Notes under the pieces: generated by a model
The model's database searches: none
Seen by the model: the letters and a program-made list of their open reading frames with translations, nothing else
What the model was told of the DNA's origin: nothing
Shown: in pieces, positions 28,760-59,056 of the stretch
How the letters are laid out: every line of letters begins with the position of its first letter
Position numbering within the stretch: position 1 is the first letter of the stretch
Source: Nitrososphaeraceae archaeon
GTDB lineage: Archaea > Thermoproteota > Nitrososphaeria > Nitrososphaerales > Nitrososphaeraceae
Assembly: GCA_031316115.1 (NCBI GenBank)
Contig: JALDRC010000002.1
Location: 372,001-436,000 of the forward strand
Direction: 5' to 3'
Length of the DNA: 64,000 bases
Program-made: the position numbers and the translations under genes

Positions 28760-30249
28760 TTAGTCAGGAGGCAGAGTAAAATCCGTTTTGCCTTCCAACA
28801 TCTTATCATATGATTTTTGTGTATAATACTGTTGGTAAAAAGAAATATGGTTATCTTTTAAATCCATTAGATATTCATGAACTCTCTGAGCACCCTCTCG
28901 TCCCTTTTGCATTGCCTTTACAATTAGAGTTTCACCACTAGTAACGTCTCCTGCAGCAAATACACCTTTAATTGAGGTTCTGTAGTCACTAGTAATTGCA
29001 ATAGAATTACGCTTGCCAGTCTTGATTCCAGCTTTCTTTTGTAGAAAAGAATTAGGTCCTCTGCCAATAGCTATAAGTACTGTAGAGCTTGGCATTTTGA
29101 ATTCTTTGTTGGGTATGATCTCCATGTGCCTTTTTCCAGACTGGTCAGGAGCACTCATAACCATACTGTCAATTATGGTCTCGATGACATGTCCTTTATT
29201 GTCGCTTTCAAAACACTTTGCCTGCCCAAGAAATCTAAACTTCACCCCCTCTTCCTTTGCTTCTTCAAGCATTATTGGGTCAACATGTAATCCATTTTCA
29301 GAATGTAAACATAATACAGTAACATTACCTTTTCCTTCTGTAAGCCTTAATGCAGTTCTAGCGCAATCAAGTGAGGTATCTCCGCCTCCTATTACAATAA
29401 TATCATTCCCTAGGTTATATTTTGGATTAATCAAGTAAGATTCTAATCCTTCTGAAAAAACAGTTTCAAGAAATTCGTATCCGCTCAATACTCCTTCAAG
29501 ATTAATACCTGGAATTGTCAGATTCGCTGTGTCCTTTGAACCAGTGGTAATTAGTACAGCATCGTTTTCCTCTAAAAGTTGATATAATGTTATATCTTTT
29601 CCTATTTTGGTCTGAGTGATTATTTTGACCCCCATATCTTTAATTTTTTCAATTTCATCAATTAGGTTTTGTCTTTGAATGAATCGTATCGGAACTCCGC
29701 TTTCAGGCAGTTCCGGGCATTGTTCTTTGTTCTTTCATATATTGTTACCTGGTGACCGTATCTTCTGAGAAGAGCAGAACCTGCAAGACCTGCTGGTCCA
29801 GCACCTATAACGGCTATTTTTTTACCCGTTTCTTGTTCGATGGAAACAGGTTTTTGTCGATTTTTCCTTTCCCAATCTGCTATATATCTTTGAATAAGAC
29901 CGATCCCGATTGGCTGTCCTGACCACTTTAGAACGCAAGCATCTTCGCATAATCCTTGTAATTGAGGACAGCATCTTGCTGTTACACCCAGCAACGAGTT
30001 TGTTTCTCTGATCCTTTCATAAGCTGTTTTAAAATCTCTCCTGGCTGCAGCTTCATTCATCCCTCGAACATCCAAAAGGACTGGACAAGCATCTATACAA
30101 ACAGGAGTACCACATAAAAGACAACGTTCAGCTTCTTGCATAACCTCTTCCTCAGAATAAGATTGTTGAACTTCTGAAAAATTGGTCTTTCGGATTTCTG
30201 GGTCTGCTTTACGAAAAGGAAAGCCGCCAATACGGTTGGGATCAACCAT
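28760..30249 (-). pseudogene. gltD: GltD-like NAD(P)-dependent flavoprotein (glutamate synthase small subunit homologue), one-base frameshift
   Basis: The N-terminal piece (29662-30249) has the two Cys clusters of GltD-type proteins (C43, C46, C51, C55 in CLLCGTPVCIDACP; C93, C94, C101, C105), which bind [4Fe-4S] centres, and the FAD motif GAGPAG at 149-154. The C-terminal piece (28760-29635) has the second dinucleotide motif IVIGGGDTSLDCAR and the FAD-closing segment GVFAAGDVTSG. Near 29725 the frame slips: KEQCPELPESGVPIRF is encoded in the next frame and joins to MGVKIITQ. One added A restores a protein of about 495 residues. This is either a recent pseudogene or a sequence error. Such proteins pass NAD(P)H electrons to partner subunits; no large subunit is adjacent. 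Confidence 0.85.
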
Positions 30250-31922: not shown

Positions 31923-31943
31923 AATTTCAAACCATTCGTGAGA

Positions 31944-33116
31944 ATGAGTTTTCTGGTTTTCATTCTATTAAGTATTCCAATCCTAACAATAATTTCGTTT
32001 TCTCCATTTATTAACAATTCATTTGCTCAGTGGACAATACCTACAATCATAGATTCTCTAAATAATCAAAATTCAAGGTTCTTATTATATGATAATACCG
32101 AATCAAATTTAACAATACACTATCCTTCACATTGGACTTATAAAGAAAATTCAGCAAATGAAGTAGAATTTCATCCTCCTAATGGAGATGTAAATGAATT
32201 GATAAAATTAAGTGTCGATACAATTGATTCAAATTTTACAACGATTAAATCTATTGTAGATGCCACTTTAAAAGACAAAAGCAAACACCTTAAAAATTTT
32301 GAATTACATGAATCAACTCTGATACCAAATCCACAACAAAATCCGATGCAAAAGTTGGTTTATTCATATACAAATTCAAATAATACCAAAATCATGCAAC
32401 TAGACGTTGGAATGATAGATAATAATAAATTATATCTTATATCGCTAACATCAAATCCCATTAACTATTATGAATATATATCTACAGTAGAAATTATGAT
32501 AAGTTCATTAACAAATAACCTCCAACAAAAATCTTTATCTAATTATTCTACAGAGTTATTAAATCCTGTATCTGATTATATCAAACCTATTGGAAATGAA
32601 AACGCTAATATTACAATCGTTGAATTTGCAGATTATAGATGCCCATTTTGTCACAAATTTCATACAGAAACTTTCGACAAAATAAAAACTAATTTTATTG
32701 ATACGGGAAACATAAAATTTTTGTTCAGAGATTTTGTTGTAAACGATCGAGGTGAATACAAAGGTTCTACACAGGCCGCAATAGCATCTCATTGTGCTGC
32801 TGAACAAGGAAAATACTGGGAATATTCAAAAGAAATTTATGATAATTTCAAACCTGAGCCACAACAATGGATAAATATTGGTTCTCTTGTAACTTTTGCA
32901 AATAATATTCAACTCCCAGACATCAGCAAATTTAAAAATTGCATCGAATCAGGTAAATATCAAAATATTATAGTAGAAAATAGTGCAATTGCAAATAACC
33001 TAGGATTAACAGGCACTCCTGCATTTGTGATATTAAAAGATGGTAAGATAGAAACCATAATTCCAGGAGCATTACCTTATGAAGAATTTGAAAAGAATTT
33101 CAAAAATTTGTTATAA
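31944..33116 (+). CDS. Secreted DsbA-like thiol-disulfide oxidoreductase with N-terminal PsbP-like domain
   Basis: A signal peptide (ends NNSFAQ) is followed by a domain of about 150 residues with LTIHYPSHWTYKENSANEV and MIDNNKLYLISLTS, typical of PsbP/DUF1795-like modules. A thioredoxin-fold domain of the DsbA/Thioredoxin_4 type follows: ITIVEFADYRCPFCHKFH with active site CPFC, an FRDFVV strand, AAIASHCAAEQGKYWEY, and the cis-proline loop GLTGTPAFVI. It probably forms or isomerises disulfides in exported proteins, consistent with the many Cys-pair secreted proteins nearby. Related proteins are frequent in ammonia-oxidising archaea. ATG 31944 is chosen from the TATA spacing. Confidence 0.9.
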   Translation: MSFLVFILLSIPILTIISFSPFINNSFAQWTIPTIIDSLNNQNSRFLLYDNTESNLTIHYPSHWTYKENSANEVEFHPPNGDVNELIKLSVDTIDSNFTTIKSIVDATLKDKSKHLKNFELHESTLIPNPQQNPMQKLVYSYTNSNNTKIMQLDVGMIDNNKLYLISLTSNPINYYEYISTVEIMISSLTNNLQQKSLSNYSTELLNPVSDYIKPIGNENANITIVEFADYRCPFCHKFHTETFDKIKTNFIDTGNIKFLFRDFVVNDRGEYKGSTQAAIASHCAAEQGKYWEYSKEIYDNFKPEPQQWINIGSLVTFANNIQLPDISKFKNCIESGKYQNIIVENSAIANNLGLTGTPAFVILKDGKIETIIPGALPYEEFEKNFKNLL

Positions 33117-33498
33117 TAAATTCGTTACTTTTAATATAGGACAAAAAAGAGTGTTATAAACCCAAAGTTTTGAAGAAAAATATGACATTTTAGATAGGAT
33201 GCAAATATTGAATTTATTACATAGACTTCCATACTACTAACACGTATTCTATATAATAATGAAACACTATTGCTTTCAAATTTGAATAATATTTTTTTAG
33301 TTTTTATATCGATTATCATATTGTATTTGTAAATAAGAACTTTAAGAAAATGAATAGTGAATTAATTCTAAAATGTCATATTTTTCTCCTGAAATAGGAT
33401 AAACATAATAAAAAATGTATGGGATTTGATTGGAATGTTGATTTATTCTCCCCATGATCTAGTTATATAATTTATCTTGCAGCCTTCTAATACTTATA
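33117..33498. other. Intergenic region between convergent genes
   Basis: AT-rich spacer of 380 bp with several T-runs, presumably holding terminators for both flanking genes. No other feature seen. Confidence 0.4.
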
Positions 33499-34938
33499 CT
33501 ACTGTGCTGCTGCACTTATTTCAAACGTATTGACAATATTACATGTTTGTGATTGTCCGTCCTCAATGGATCCTGCTGCACTGAAATCACCGTTCTGGGT
33601 ACATTCTCCGTTAAATGCAGCAATAAGATCTCTGTTAGTGCCTGTTGGCGGATTAGCTAAGATTCCCTCGACTACTTCGTTTGGAGTTTCTGATACTTCG
33701 TAGTTGCCTGCACCTAATTCAACTTCTTGTGGATCAGTTGAACCTAGGAACGAAGATGGAACTGGATTGCCACCAGTTACGTCTATGGTAAAGTCATCTG
33801 GACCTACATTGTTATTTATTGGATTACATCTAGTTGGATTAACTCCTGGTTGGACTTGGCACTCAACATTTTTGGTTATGCTTAATGTTCCAGTACCTGT
33901 GTCACCATTTGGTACAACAGGAATAACTACATTGGCTACCTCACATTCTGCATCAACTGTGTTTGTTTCTATTAGTAGACCATCAACACATTCACTGTTT
34001 TGAATTGCACATACAACTGCTTGACCTCCAGCAATTACTGCGGAACCAGTAGCGGTAAGTAGAGCACCAGGTTCTGATTCTGCTGTTGCAATATTCTCAC
34101 AACCAATTGGAACATTGGTAGTTACTGGCACTGGACCAGCTGCTGTCTCTATCTGTGTTTCTGCCAATGTATATGTGAATCCGGGTGTTACAAATGCTGT
34201 GGTAACACCTTCATCTACATCAAGGACAAATTGTGTGTTATCGATATCAAATACATCTGGTGGAGTGTTGTCGTTTGTCAATGTCATGTCATACTGTGTT
34301 GGACCAAAGTCTCCTGTAGTTACAACACCTTCTAGATCAGTTGAACCTGCTCCAAGTATAGTATCACATTCTTGTTGGTTGGTTGCTGGGTCTTCATTCA
34401 AAGCACATTCTACACCTTTACCTATTCCTATTGGAATACCACCTGCTGCTGCTGCAGAGATAACTACATTGGCTACCTCACATTCTGCATCAACTGTGTT
34501 TGTTTCTATTAGTAGACCATCAACACATTCACTGTTTTGAATTGCACATACAACTGCTTGACCTCCAGCAATTACTGCGGAACCAGTAGCGGTAAGTAGA
34601 GCACCAGGTTCTGATTCTGCTGTTGCAATATTCTCACAACCAATTGGAACATTGGTAGTTACTGGCACTGGACCAGCTGCTGTCTCTATCTGTGTTTCTG
34701 CCAATGTATATGTGAATCCGGGTGTTACAAATGCTGTGGTAACACCTTCATCTACATCAAGGACAAATTGTGTGTTATCGATATCAAATACATCTGGTGG
34801 AGTGTTGTCGTTTGTCAATGTCATGTCATACTGTGTTGGACCAAAGTCTCCTGTAGTTACAACACCTTCTAGATCAGTTGAACCTGCTCCAAGTATAGTA
34901 TCACATTCTTGTTGGTTGGTTGCTGGGTCTTCATTCAA
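33499..34938 (-). CDS. C-terminal part of a large secreted repeat protein (prealbumin-like)
   Basis: Two complete 179-residue repeats (each from GIGKGVECALNEDP to DAECEVANVVI) are followed by a different C-terminal domain of about 130 residues starting GTGTLSITKNVECQ and ending SQTCNIVNTFEISAAAQ. Both units look like SpaA/Cna-B or prealbumin-like beta domains with conserved Cys pairs (GCENIATAE, SECVDGLL). The two repeats are almost identical even at the DNA level. The frame's first codons have no promoter; they continue the gene starting at 36354, broken between 34939 and 35213 by compensating indels and a stop. In intact form the product would be a surface protein of about 945 residues. Confidence 0.75.
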   Translation of the reverse strand: MNEDPATNQQECDTILGAGSTDLEGVVTTGDFGPTQYDMTLTNDNTPPDVFDIDNTQFVLDVDEGVTTAFVTPGFTYTLAETQIETAAGPVPVTTNVPIGCENIATAESEPGALLTATGSAVIAGGQAVVCAIQNSECVDGLLIETNTVDAECEVANVVISAAAAGGIPIGIGKGVECALNEDPATNQQECDTILGAGSTDLEGVVTTGDFGPTQYDMTLTNDNTPPDVFDIDNTQFVLDVDEGVTTAFVTPGFTYTLAETQIETAAGPVPVTTNVPIGCENIATAESEPGALLTATGSAVIAGGQAVVCAIQNSECVDGLLIETNTVDAECEVANVVIPVVPNGDTGTGTLSITKNVECQVQPGVNPTRCNPINNNVGPDDFTIDVTGGNPVPSSFLGSTDPQEVELGAGNYEVSETPNEVVEGILANPPTGTNRDLIAAFNGECTQNGDFSAAGSIEDGQSQTCNIVNTFEISAAAQ

Positions 34939-35509
34939 AGCACATTCTACACCTTTACCTATTCCTATTGGAATACCACCTGCTGCTGCTGTAGAGATAA
35001 CTACATTGGCTACCTCACATTCTGCATCAACTGTGTTTGTTTCTATTAGTAGACCATCAACACATTCACTGTTTTGAATTGCACATACAACTGCTTAAAC
35101 TCCAGCATTACTGCGGAACCAGTAGCGGTAAGTAGAGCACCAGGTTCTGATTCTGCTGTTGCAATATTCTCACAACCAATTGGAACATTGGTAGTTACTG
35201 GCACTGGACCAGCCTGCTGTCTCTATCTGTGTTTCTGCCAATGTATATGTGAATCCGGGTGTTACAAATGCTGTGGTAACACCTTCATCTACATCAAGGA
35301 CAAATTGTGTGTTATCGATATCAAATACATCTGGTGGAGTGTTGTCGTTTGTCAATGTCATGTCATACTGTGTTGGACCAAAGTCTCCTGTAGTTACAAC
35401 ACCTTCTAGATCAGTTGAACCTGCTCCAAGTAGTTCATTACACAGTACTTGGTTGTTTGCATCATTCTCTGGATCTAAAGCACATTCTACACCTTTACCT
35501 ATTCCTAGT
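33924..35509 (-). repeat. Three tandem 537-bp (179-codon) repeats
   Basis: The same landmark (start of GGCTACCTCACATTCTGC region) recurs at 33924, 34461 and 34998, giving a period of exactly 537 bp. The first two units are essentially identical. The third (first in translation) has a C insertion at about 35213, an A deletion near 35106 and substitutions that make a stop, and its start differs (DPENDANNQVLCNELL). Confidence 0.9.
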
Positions 35510-36354
35510 TCTACAGTACCTGTAGATGGAGGTGGAGTTGTACCAGAATTTTCAATTAATGAATTTATAATAGCAGAAGTTACTGTGTCTTCTGTGGATC
35601 CAGGAGTTGTTAAAGTTCTTAGAGTATCACCTAATTCTTGTAATTGGGATACATTATCTGAAGGATCTTCTAAAAGAACACTAATAGCAGTACAAATTTC
35701 AAGGATATCCTCTTGTGGAGTTTGATTCGGCTCACCTGGTTGAGTAGATAATTCTAAAACTTGGTTAAAGTTGTCTATTATAAATTTTCTCTGTTCTTCA
35801 GTCACAAAACCTAGATAATACTCAAAGGATTTTTGACAAAAAGATACATCAAATGGCTGCTCTTTACAATTCTCTATATCAGAAACAAGAAGTCCATTAG
35901 GACATTCAATTAGATCTGGATAATCACAATTCTTTAAATCATAAACAAGAAGTCCATTAGAACATTCCTTTAAATTCGGATCTTTAACATAAATTGGAGG
36001 ATATTCATAAGATGGATAGTAAGAAGAAGAATACGAAGAACCTGGATATGATTGATAATCAGAATATGTGTCTAACTTATAATTATAATCCTTAGGATAT
36101 TCATTTATTTTATTTGTTTGATAATCCGAGTAAGGTTGTTTTTCCTGTTTTTCTTTGTATGATTGCTTACCAATATCATAGTCATAAGACAAACCTTCTT
36201 TCTTATTTTCAACGGCTTTATATTCAGGTGTTGGATAGTCTTGTATTTCTTTTATTGCAATTGCATCATCTATATTATTAGGTATTGATGCAGTTACAGT
36301 ACCAAAAAATAAAAGTACAGATAACAATCCAATTCCTATCTTGGGATTGCGCAT
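35170..36354 (-). CDS. N-terminal part of the large secreted repeat protein
   Basis: A signal peptide (MRNPKIGIGLLSVLLFFG, ending DDAIA) is followed by a Tyr/Lys/Ser/Pro-rich stretch (SDYQSYPGSSYSSSYYPS). Then come two near-identical Cys-bounded 14-residue motifs (CSNGLLVYDLKNC, CPNGLLVSDIENC) and a helical domain with FCQKSFEYYLGFVTEEQ, EDILEICTAISVLLEDP and TVTSAIINSLIEN. The first prealbumin-like repeat starts at GIGKGVECALDP. The frame is lost at about 35213, where one extra C converts ETAAGPVP to ETAGWSS and soon a stop. The helical domain resembles those in the 57297-59056 and 63240-64000 genes. TATA-like box at 36371-36382. Confidence 0.8.
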   Translation of the reverse strand: MRNPKIGIGLLSVLLFFGTVTASIPNNIDDAIAIKEIQDYPTPEYKAVENKKEGLSYDYDIGKQSYKEKQEKQPYSDYQTNKINEYPKDYNYKLDTYSDYQSYPGSSYSSSYYPSYEYPPIYVKDPNLKECSNGLLVYDLKNCDYPDLIECPNGLLVSDIENCKEQPFDVSFCQKSFEYYLGFVTEEQRKFIIDNFNQVLELSTQPGEPNQTPQEDILEICTAISVLLEDPSDNVSQLQELGDTLRTLTTPGSTEDTVTSAIINSLIENSGTTPPPSTGTVELGIGKGVECALDPENDANNQVLCNELLGAGSTDLEGVVTTGDFGPTQYDMTLTNDNTPPDVFDIDNTQFVLDVDEGVTTAFVTPGFTYTLAETQIETAGWSSASNYQCSNWL

Positions 36355-36370
36355 ATAATGTATAAATTGT

Positions 36371-36382
36371 ATTTAAATATCT
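36371..36382 (-). promoter_or_regulatory. TATA-like box for the large repeat protein
   Basis: On the minus strand ATATTTAAATAC is centred about 23 nt upstream of the ATG at 36354, leaderless geometry. Confidence 0.45.
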
Positions 36383-37179
36383 AGGGTTTGATTAAAAATT
36401 CAATAAGTTAGGTATTATTATCTAATATTATATATTTTTATTATTTTATTTAACTCTTCCATGAAATGTAAGAAAGATTATTGTTTTTTTATCGTATGAT
36501 TATATAATAACTATTATTAATTACAGAGAACAGTAGAAAAATTAGAATTTAATCTAAGTAATTATTGGTTAAAATATCTAATTACTTATTTATATTCTTT
36601 CTAATAATTCCCTTATGTTATCCGATGTAAACAAATCTAGTAAATCCAAATTAAACAGTCAATTAATTTTTAGAAACAGCATTTTGTCATAAAGGTTTTG
36701 CACAAAAACTATCTTCAGATAATACTAATGAAATGAAAGATAATAAGTAAAAACAAATTTTAAAATAGATAAAAATATTGTCAAGATAAGAAGGTTTTTG
36801 GTAATATTAAAAAAGAAAGGAGATAAAGATAAGAAATAAGAATAATGATAACTTGATTTTTACGGAATCTTTCTATGTGTGGTATATATTATTACCTCAC
36901 TGAAGACCAAAATCTGGGTGGAATACTATCAAATAATATAACTTCTTTTACATTAATCTATTTTAATAGTTCATTCTATGAGGATATGTATATTATTATC
37001 TGACTAAACATCTGCATTTCTTGCTATTAAATCATAACTCATAGAAACAAAAAATTGTATCCATTTAGGTAAATACAATAAATTGTAATCATCTTTTTGC
37101 AATCATAGGTACTAACCATCAAAACTTTTTATTGAATTCTTAAAATCCTAATTCCTCTCCTATCAAATACAGATTTTCT
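36383..37179. other. Intergenic region without recognisable genes
   Basis: 800 bp of AT-rich DNA; no gene, RNA or repeat recognised. It starts a 3.8-kb stretch devoid of intact genes. Confidence 0.4.
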
Positions 37180-43095: not shown

Positions 43096-44102
43096 TTAGT
43101 CAGGTCCTAATGTTGATGAGATAGGATGACCTAAAAGTGATGGAGTTATATCATGATTATTTTCACTCATAGGTTCAACTTGCATTCTCTGAGGTTTCAT
43201 GTTCATGTCCTTCATGTTATGATTTCCATTATTGGTTGGTTTTTCAAAAGGATACTTGTTTTCATATGGTGCCTTCTTTTCATATGGGTTCTTCATATAG
43301 TATGGATCTTTCTTTTCAAAAGGATACTTGTTTTCATATGGTGCCTTCTTTTCATATGGGTTCTTCATATAGTATGGATCTTTCTTTTCAAAAGGATACT
43401 TGTTTTCATATGGTGCCTTCTTTCATATGGTTCTTCATATAGTATGATCTTCTTTCAAAAGGATACTTGTTTTCATATGGTGCCTTCTTTTCATATATGG
43501 GTTCTTCATATAGTATGGATCTTTCTTTTCAAAAGGATACTTGTTTTCATATGGTGCCTTCTTTTCATATGGGTTCTTCATATAGTATGGATCTTTCTTT
43601 TCAAAAGGATACTTGTTTTCATATGGTGCCTTCTTTCATATGGGTTCTTCATATAGTATGGATCTTTCTCTTTTCAAAAGGATACTGCTTTCATACGGAT
43701 CTTTCTTGTAGTACTTGATCCTTCTTCTTCTCATACGGGATCTTTCTTGTAGTATTGATCCTTCTTCTCATACGAATCTTTCTTGTAGTATTGCTCTTTA
43801 TCATAAGGAGTGTCATAATACTGATCCATCATGTAACCGTATTGACCACGTTCATCATAAGGATCATATGAATATCGGTCTCTATCACCATGTCTTTTTT
43901 TGTCCTTCCTGTCATCACAGTCTCGTTTCTTGTCTTTCTTGTGTTTCTTATCTCTCTTGTCATCATTGCAGTACTTGTCTTTCTTGTACTTCTTGTCACT
44001 TGATGCCATAACATCTTCTGTAACAGATGGAAGTGCGAGAGTTATAGCTCCACTTATCAAGACTACTGCCAAGAACATGGCTAATATCTTTCCCTTAACC
44101 AT
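43096..44102 (-). pseudogene. Secreted tandem-repeat protein with 24-residue Pro/Tyr/Lys repeats, several frameshifts
   Basis: The N-terminal part (43731-44102) has a signal peptide (MVKGKILAMFLAVVLISGAI, cleavage near DVMA) and a Lys/Asp/Arg-rich mature start with two Cys (KYCNDDKRD, KRDCDDRKD), then QYGYMMDQYYDTPYDKEQYY. The middle encodes 24-residue units (KDPYYMKNPYEKKAPYENKY plus PFEK). The C-terminal part (43096-43368) ends MSENNHDITPSLLGHPISST. Missing or added bases in T, G and A runs at about 43420, 43450, 43495, 43630, 43670 and 43730 break the frame. The size when repaired is about 335 residues. A TATA-like run lies at 44119-44129. Confidence 0.75.
43251..43690 (-). repeat. Seven tandem copies of a 72-bp coding repeat, some with indels
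   Basis: The landmark GATACTTGTTTTCATATGG recurs at 43251, 43323, 43395, 43462, 43536, 43608 and (altered) 43681, giving spacings of 72, 72, 67, 74, 72 and 73. Deviations come from shortened T, G and A runs and one TA duplication. Confidence 0.9.
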
Positions 44103-45436: not shown

Positions 45437-45456
45437 TGACGAAACATCCTTCATTA

Positions 45457-45604
45457 TTTATTTTAGCTTGTTAGATACATATAAAGTTGTTATTTAATGA
45501 CAATAGAGATTTATTTTAGCTTGTTAGATACATATAAAGTTGTTATTTAATGACAATAGAGATTTATTTTAGCTTGTTAGATACATATAAAGTTGTTATT
45601 TAAT
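45457..45604. repeat. Non-coding 53-bp minisatellite, 2.8 copies
   Basis: Units start at 45457, 45510 and 45563 with TTTATTTTAGCTTGTTAG; the first two are identical and the third stops after about 41 bases. The period is not a multiple of three and the repeats lie just upstream of the promoter of the 45404 gene. Confidence 0.9.
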
Positions 45605-57296: not shown

Positions 57297-59056
57297 TCAG
57301 TCGAATATCGACATTATGTTTGGAAATGATGGGATTATATTATTTATGTCTAGAGGTTTGGATCCCATTCTCGTATTTTCTTGTTGTATATTCTGTACCC
57401 CTTGTTGTTCATCTTGTACTTGAGTTTGTTTTTGTTGTGCTTGTTGAATCATCTGGTTAGAGGATTGTGCTGCTATGTTATTTTCTTGTTGTATATTCTG
57501 TACCCCTTGTTGTTCGTCTTGAATTAATGGTGTATGTTGTTGGAATTTATTCTCTTCACTTGAATTTATGTTCTCATTTTGTTTTTGTGTTATGTCTTGG
57601 GGAAATGTCTGAGTAATATTAACAGATGATTCTGCCTGATTTTTGTTATTAGATTGTATCGATTTGATAGATTCTTTATGTGCTGTTATATCACTAGGTT
57701 GAATCTGAAGCTTAACATGGTTTTGTTCTGCTATACAATCAATTATTGCTAAAATAACTAATCCTATATTGTCTCCATTAACATCTCTAACTATCCCTTG
57801 ATTACTTACGATATTTTGTTGAATGTTGTCAGCCCAGTCTAGAAGTAATCCTGCCAGAATTCTAGATTTATCCTGTCCACTAGACAATAATGATGACATA
57901 GCTTCACAAATTTCCCATATATTTGCAGAGTCAAACAAAGGAATATCATTTTCATTGGTAATTTGATCTAAACTAGCTCCATTTTGATTTAAGGTATTTA
58001 TTAATTCCAAGTACGCAACTGCCAATTCATCACGAGTAAGGAAATCCATGTAGAATAAATAACAGGTTTCACAGGAATCTATTGGATCTTTATCTTTTAC
58101 ACCTAAGTACTGTTTTCCAAAGTTATGTTTTGCTCCATATTTAGAATAAGAACCTTTTTCATCCTTTATGTACTCATTTCCCTTGTTGTACTTTGATTTC
58201 TTTTCATCCTTTATGTACTCATTTCCCTTGTTGTACTTTGATTTCTTTTCATCCTTTATGTACTCATTTCCCTTTATTGATTTCTTTTCATCCTTTATAC
58301 CATTTTTGTTTACTTGATTTCTTTTCATCCTTTATACTCATTTCCCTTGTTATTTTGATTTCTTTTCATCCTTTATACTCATTTCCCTTGTTATACTTTG
58401 ATTTCTTTTCATCCTTTATACTCATTTCCCTTGTTGTCTTTGATTTCTTTTCATCTTTATACTCATTTTCCTTGGTACTTTGATTTCTTTTCATAGTCTT
58501 GGTATTTACCTTTGTAATCTGTATAATCATCACTTGCTCCAAATTCAAAAGAATCTCCTTTGTATTTTTGTTCTATATATGGTTCATCATATTTCTTCTG
58601 ATTTTTTTGACTTTTTTTATCTTTTACGTATTTTTCATCGATATTTGGAAAGTAATCTTCCTCATAATCGTTATCTGAGGATTTACTTTTCTTCTTATAA
58701 TTAAACTTATCATCAGAATAGATTTTTTTGTTGTCATTGATATCTGTAGAATAGGGATCCTCATATGGAACTTCAGTATTAAAACTATCTGTCTCATATA
58801 TGTCACCATTATTAAGATTATAATTGTTATAATAATCCTCATTATCAAAATCTTGATAATATTGATAATCATCTATATCATATTCATCGTACTCACTGTA
58901 CTTTGATTGTTCATGATTATTTTCTTCGTATTTCTTATTAGTCTTATCCTTAGCTGCTTCTGTATCGATTAAAATAAATGAAGGAGATAAAATTGTAAAT
59001 GTGCCGGCTAATAGAATTACAGCTAAGAACATCGCAGCAATCCCTGATTTGTGCAT
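57297..59056 (-). pseudogene. Secreted tandem-repeat protein with Cys-containing helical domain and Gln-rich tail; frameshifts in repeats
   Basis: The 5' part (58463-59056) has a signal peptide (GIAAMFLAVILLAGTF, cleavage near TEA) and a very acidic Tyr/Asp/Lys segment. It runs into degenerate 15-residue repeats (KSKYNKGNEYIKDEK) with frame-breaking indels between about 58290 and 58470. The 3' part (57297-58328) reads repeats in frame, then a helical domain (DSCETCYLFYMDFLTRDE, IWEICEAMSSLLSSG, LVILAIIDCIAEQ) and a Gln-rich region containing EQQGVQNIQQEN twice, ending NIIPSFPNIMSIFD. Repaired length is about 580 residues. The helical domain matches that of the 36354 and 63240 proteins. An AT-rich promoter lies about 26 nt upstream of 59056. 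Confidence 0.75.
58162..58500 (-). repeat. Tandem 45-bp coding repeats with shrinking units
   Basis: The landmark TCCTTTATG(T)AC recurs at 58162, 58207, 58252, 58291, 58328, 58369, 58412 and about 58454: spacings 45, 45, 39, 37, 41, 43, 42. The first three units are in frame and encode 15 residues; the others have lost bases and shift the frame. Confidence 0.85.

Follow-up and report, generated by a model that had tools for sequence, protein, structure and literature searches.

Several protein families are given as isopeptide-domain families in PMC12617251, including SpaA_2, DUF7601, SpaA_4 and DUF5979, with disulfides described there as prevalent in SpaA_2 and SpaA_4 and with archaeal isopeptide examples that belong mainly to DUF11. 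The terms 'Nitroso', 'Thermoproteota' and 'Thaumarchae' are absent from the main text of that paper, and a search of the open-licence literature returned no paper that treats domains or arrays of this kind in these archaea. For repeated genes in assembled genomes, the closest described case is that of errors which outlast polishing, and according to the Polypolish paper (PMC8812927), reads leave an erroneous repeat copy uncovered during this step.

To this background we add a locus from a Nitrososphaeraceae genome (20 contigs, 3.16 Mb), located in a window of 64,000 nucleotides, which is the whole stretch of DNA analysed here (C12:372001-436000). Three 537-bp units stand in tandem on the minus strand at ~33923-35523 (Table 1). 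The original prediction of three 179-codon units is borne out by exact runs at a lag of 537 bp, which cover 33923-34454 (532 bp), 34456-34559 (104 bp) and 34677-34895 (219 bp); the 532-bp run rules out a chance repeat. A single mismatch occurs in the first 637 lag positions (34455 versus 34992), where the 3' end of unit two is compared with that of unit one. In translation order, units two and three agree at all of the 524 bp that they share, as had been claimed for them at the DNA level, and unit three ends without the last 13 bp of the unit, where the sequence becomes unique. In the first 91 alignment columns there are 30 differences between units one and two, with an additional 3-bp length difference, and beyond these columns the two are identical except for four lesions and the base at 34992. 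Such an abrupt junction between a diverged 5' part and identity with unit two suggests that gene conversion or unequal crossing-over acted on an array already in place, in combination with duplication of the 537-bp unit. The original prediction had overlooked both this old 5' part and the diverged copy that makes a fourth domain. The 5' sequence common to units two and three is not the one found in unit one, which means that no fewer than two units must be real, with the third resting on the assembly. No donor copy of the unit was found elsewhere in the genome, the only match being C14:5464 (66% identity), which lies over domain four.

Table 1. Features of the array gene and its neighbour (positions within the window).
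Feature	Position	Strand	Remarks
Secreted thioredoxin/DsbA-like gene	31938-33116	+	adjoins array gene, convergent
Domain four, diverged, CnaB-like	33514-33900	-	candidate isopeptide residues Lys10, Glu71 and Asn124 of the modelled stretch
Unit three	33923-34446	-	open frame; matches unit two along its entire length
Unit two	34447-34983	-	open frame
Unit one	34984-35523	-	first ~91 bp diverged, rest equal to unit two apart from lesions
Lesion cluster in unit one	35097-35214	-	1-base insertion, 1-base deletion and a pair of substitutions that leave a stop
N-terminal part: signal-peptide-like leader (by eye), Tyr/Pro-rich linker, small Cys-containing region	35524-36354	-	ORF 35170-36354

The identity of the encoded protein is clearest in domain four, for which a structural model of high confidence (pLDDT 96.6) was obtained. 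Its best structural match is 5u5o (Z 9.0, rmsd 3.3, 112 residues aligned), a Mobiluncus adhesin cross-linked by isopeptide, disulfide and ester bonds, and the next matches include many Gram-positive pilins among other proteins at Z 5-7, a range in which, as for any Z under 8, the similarity may reflect merely a common arrangement. Based on this model, domain four is confidently predicted to be CnaB-like, with a transthyretin-like/CnaB beta-sandwich fold. Relatives of domain four are present in 29 of 70 genomes of the family (our genome counted), and those inspected are mostly short secreted proteins with one domain, some having two or three. Matches in other genomes span domain four and reach no further than the terminal part of the last unit, and a search of genome contigs with the 33502-34938 half returned no named relatives.

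The repeated 179-residue unit shares 15-27% identity with the other 20 domains of a 21-domain alignment, in which two Cys are conserved in 21/21 and Lys, Glu and Asn each in 18/21, these counts describing a set hand-picked from inspected loci. The triad columns, comprising Lys (first strand), Glu and Asn (last strand), are present in the unit and in domain four alike, and on this alignment the unit is an enlarged relative of domain four. Among the 21 aligned domains, Pfam matches at E 0.01 were to SpaA_2 (9), DUF7601 (4), SpaA_4 (1) and DUF5979 (1), and a fifth family, DUF4352, matched one member domain. Domain four itself had no Pfam match at E 0.01, and the unit ORF had only matches too weak for the cut-off, to unrelated models. 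The unit was modelled poorly (pLDDT 61.4), and the nine best Foldseek matches of this model were Gram-positive pilins or pilus adhesins, the best at E 0.035 and none at E 0.001. A PDB sequence search with the domain profile gave marginal matches only, to streptococcal Cpa (E 0.88 and 0.89).

Upstream of the units, the N-terminal part had no Pfam match up to E 0.1, and the N-terminal half had no match among 5 other genomes of the genus. By eye, 35524-35980 and the protein at 57297-58328 seem to have in common a short helical stretch containing an 'ICxAxSxLL' motif, perhaps a module of these surface proteins. The DsbA-like neighbour could supply disulfides to the array protein. The examined flank of the locus in the closest relative (L048) contained no array gene, and orthology is unsure because the neighbour is one of several family members, with 9 matches in its own genome. 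No known RNA family was detected in the window at gathering score, and fewer promoters and terminators were predicted in 33100-36700 than in shuffles. Elsewhere in the window, a perfect 53-bp tandem repeat (45456-45604, 2.8 copies) lies outside any ORF of at least 100 aa.

Tandem arrays of at least 100 bp with a period of at least 12 were searched for in 848,613 bases sampled from this genome and in 800,000 bases of a relative assembled as one contig (G012, 2,836,447 bases). All 19 arrays in the G012 sample have a period divisible by three and lie inside an ORF, and most are near-perfect, indicating that such arrays are real in the family. A hydrophobic N-terminus, by a crude test, was found in 8/15 array-bearing ORFs of G012 versus 108/468 ORFs overall (p = 0.012), in line with arrays favouring secreted proteins. 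Near-perfect in-frame arrays are thus ordinary in the family, and the present array is of this ordinary kind.

These comparisons bear on a reading in which the unit number is an assembly artefact, with a true array of either two or more than three units and a consensus that mixes copies or strains. We regard this as a serious but somewhat less than even possibility, given that unit three has no unique base relative to unit two, that short reads resolve identical 537-bp repeats poorly, and that an assembly in 20 contigs, one of which (C14) opens with 61 bp of the amoC 3' end, shows that repeats troubled it. On the other hand, one base tells the two junctions apart (34455 versus 34992), and comparable arrays occur in the one-contig relative.

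The lesions that split the gene are a 1-base insertion at ~35214, a 1-base deletion at ~35107 and substitutions at ~35099 and ~35097; together they span 118 bp, and the two substitutions result in a TAA stop in frame. The insertion (+1) and the deletion (-1) compensate for each other in frame, with stops between and just past them, and the resulting minus-strand ORFs are 35170-36354 and 33499-34938. The unit alignment and the ORFs agree with the original prediction that the damage is confined to unit one and divides the gene in this way. Every lesion lies at a distance of at least 219 bp from the diverged 5' stretch at the start of unit one and of 105-222 bp from the lone distinguishing base on the other side; a short read from this region would therefore find its better alignment in a clean unit. 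A damaged unit beside identical clean units and remote from unique sequence is the pattern of an error within a repeat, and amoC presents it likewise. We consider the lesions in unit one to be probably consensus errors rather than the sign of a truly broken gene.

The presence of amoC, a gene that ammonia-oxidising archaea need, identifies the organism as an ammonia oxidiser. Of its three near-identical copies, C15:274159 is open, and the copies at C12:96500 (96500-97100) and C15:270395 have deletions, insertions and substitutions in clusters within otherwise identical sequence. Arrays in the same genome are affected as well. The sample contained 42 arrays, 39 of them with a period divisible by three, and after C14:214832 was dropped (coding unclear), 6 of 38 coding arrays were found to be spread over several frames (C12:142950, 177011, 179587, 405923, 415241 and 430156), a count in which C12:415241, first credited to a spurious ORF, was scored as broken on inspection and the other ORF-credited arrays were scored on that assignment. 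Two of these, at 43241-43784 (C12:415241) and 58156-58494 (C12:430156) of the window, are arrays in secreted Lys/Tyr-rich proteins. Very long low-complexity arrays of GETP and GSPSGETPGQTP types, with many frame changes, occupy C12:176627-181682 (L065, L066 and L067).

Conserved genes provide a baseline for this damage. In comparison with G012, 3 of 91 such genes are broken, one of them amoC, leaving 2 of 90 when amoC is removed (at least 40% identity and at least 70% coverage against 800 kb of G012). In the reverse control, 4 of 87 genes have a stop or frame change in G012, which puts the noise of the method at a few percent. Arrays are broken more often than conserved genes (p = 0.009, Fisher one-sided), a rough comparison since arrays and genes differ in length, and the same test of broken arrays in this genome's sample versus those of G012 gave only p = 0.08. 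A 1050-bp duplicate in the sample has two identical copies, which counts against consensus error. A gltD-like gene (glutamate synthase small subunit family; 28760-30249) is split by a frame change near 29640-29700; it has one strong match in its own genome, and six strong matches in other genomes are open, at 495-514 aa. The split in this single-copy gene indicates either that errors are not confined to repeats or that the strain has real breaks. Outside the window, a gene at C12:116266-116826 (L062), which we take to be transaldolase-like, has an in-frame stop relative to its G012 counterpart.

Real lesions, that is, a young pseudogene in this strain whose units were duplicated before the break, would account for the several lesion types, a clean stop among them, and would fit the broken single-copy gltD-like gene nearby and the 2 of 90 broken conserved genes. 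We nevertheless consider this unlikely, because every visible lesion falls within 118 bp of one unit, the other ~2.7 kb being open in two long ORFs, and because copies of amoC, a needed gene, show damage in the same style beside a clean copy. A phase- or antigenic-variation switch, in which the frame break silences the surface protein and recombination with clean units restores it, is very improbable: identical tandem units of a surface protein could recombine, but the lesions lie outside homopolymer and short-repeat tracts and are of mixed type (insertion, deletion and substitutions), and a search of the genome turned up no other copy of the unit beyond the 66% match at C14:5464 over domain four.

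We therefore favour, with reasonable confidence, a secreted CnaB-like stalk protein whose units were duplicated or homogenised and whose breaks in unit one are residual consensus errors, the living gene being intact with at least two units. The original prediction offered recent expansion or a collapsed or mixed assembly as alternatives, and each appears to apply to a different part of the locus. For the array itself, a real structure with recent duplication or homogenisation of its units is probable, judging from the units and from G012, and the assembly-fault half probably holds for the lesions as consensus errors, since the damaged amoC copies and the other broken arrays are alike.

Under our preferred reading, this ammonia-oxidising archaeon encodes here a secreted protein of several domains, with a string of four related ones making up its C-terminal two thirds. 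A Lys-Asn isopeptide bond together with disulfides may lock each domain, and the four rigid domains could form a stiff extracellular stalk, the protein being either anchored or released. Such a stalk is likely, with a length that follows the unit number; identical units would recombine easily, so that length could vary. Unequal recombination or gene conversion may have duplicated and homogenised the 537-bp units, and residual long-read errors would persist where short reads from identical units align to the error-free unit. The living gene probably has a single intact frame. More tentatively, and with appreciable doubt, we suggest that terrestrial ammonia-oxidising archaea build doubly locked (isopeptide and disulfide) CnaB-like stalks whose length is tuned by rapid recombination of units.

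For curation, neither the repeat arrays of this genome nor its multi-copy genes, among them amoC, should be called pseudogenes without reads. The locus also suggests that Nitrososphaeraceae have a group of secreted CnaB-like proteins, probably cross-linked, and arrays in which the unit number may differ between strains.

Three known systems frame these proposals. The unit-one damage resembles the residual repeat errors described in the Polypolish paper (PMC8812927) in having one bad copy beside clean others, with errors beyond read length from unique sequence; it differs in that long reads with short-read polishing are presumed for the present assembly. The G012 arrays, likened to the present one by array search alone, are near-perfect and also have domain-sized units (234 bp x2.4 at 100%; 279 bp x5.0 at 99%), and 0/19 of them are without a spanning ORF. 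As for the CnaB-like (prealbumin/SpaA-type) families, here compared with SpaA_2 (PF19403), SpaA_4 (PF24514), DUF7601 (PF24547) and DUF5979 (PF19407), the present domains differ from those of Gram-positive bacteria in their archaeal host, in the extra ~50 residues of the units and in an isopeptide bond that is predicted. Like the CnaB domains of Gram-positive pilins and fibrillar adhesins, domain four is modelled as a beta-sandwich whose first strand bears the Lys, an inner strand the Glu and the last strand the Asn, and the present protein shares with those proteins conserved disulfide-capable Cys, domains in tandem and secretion.
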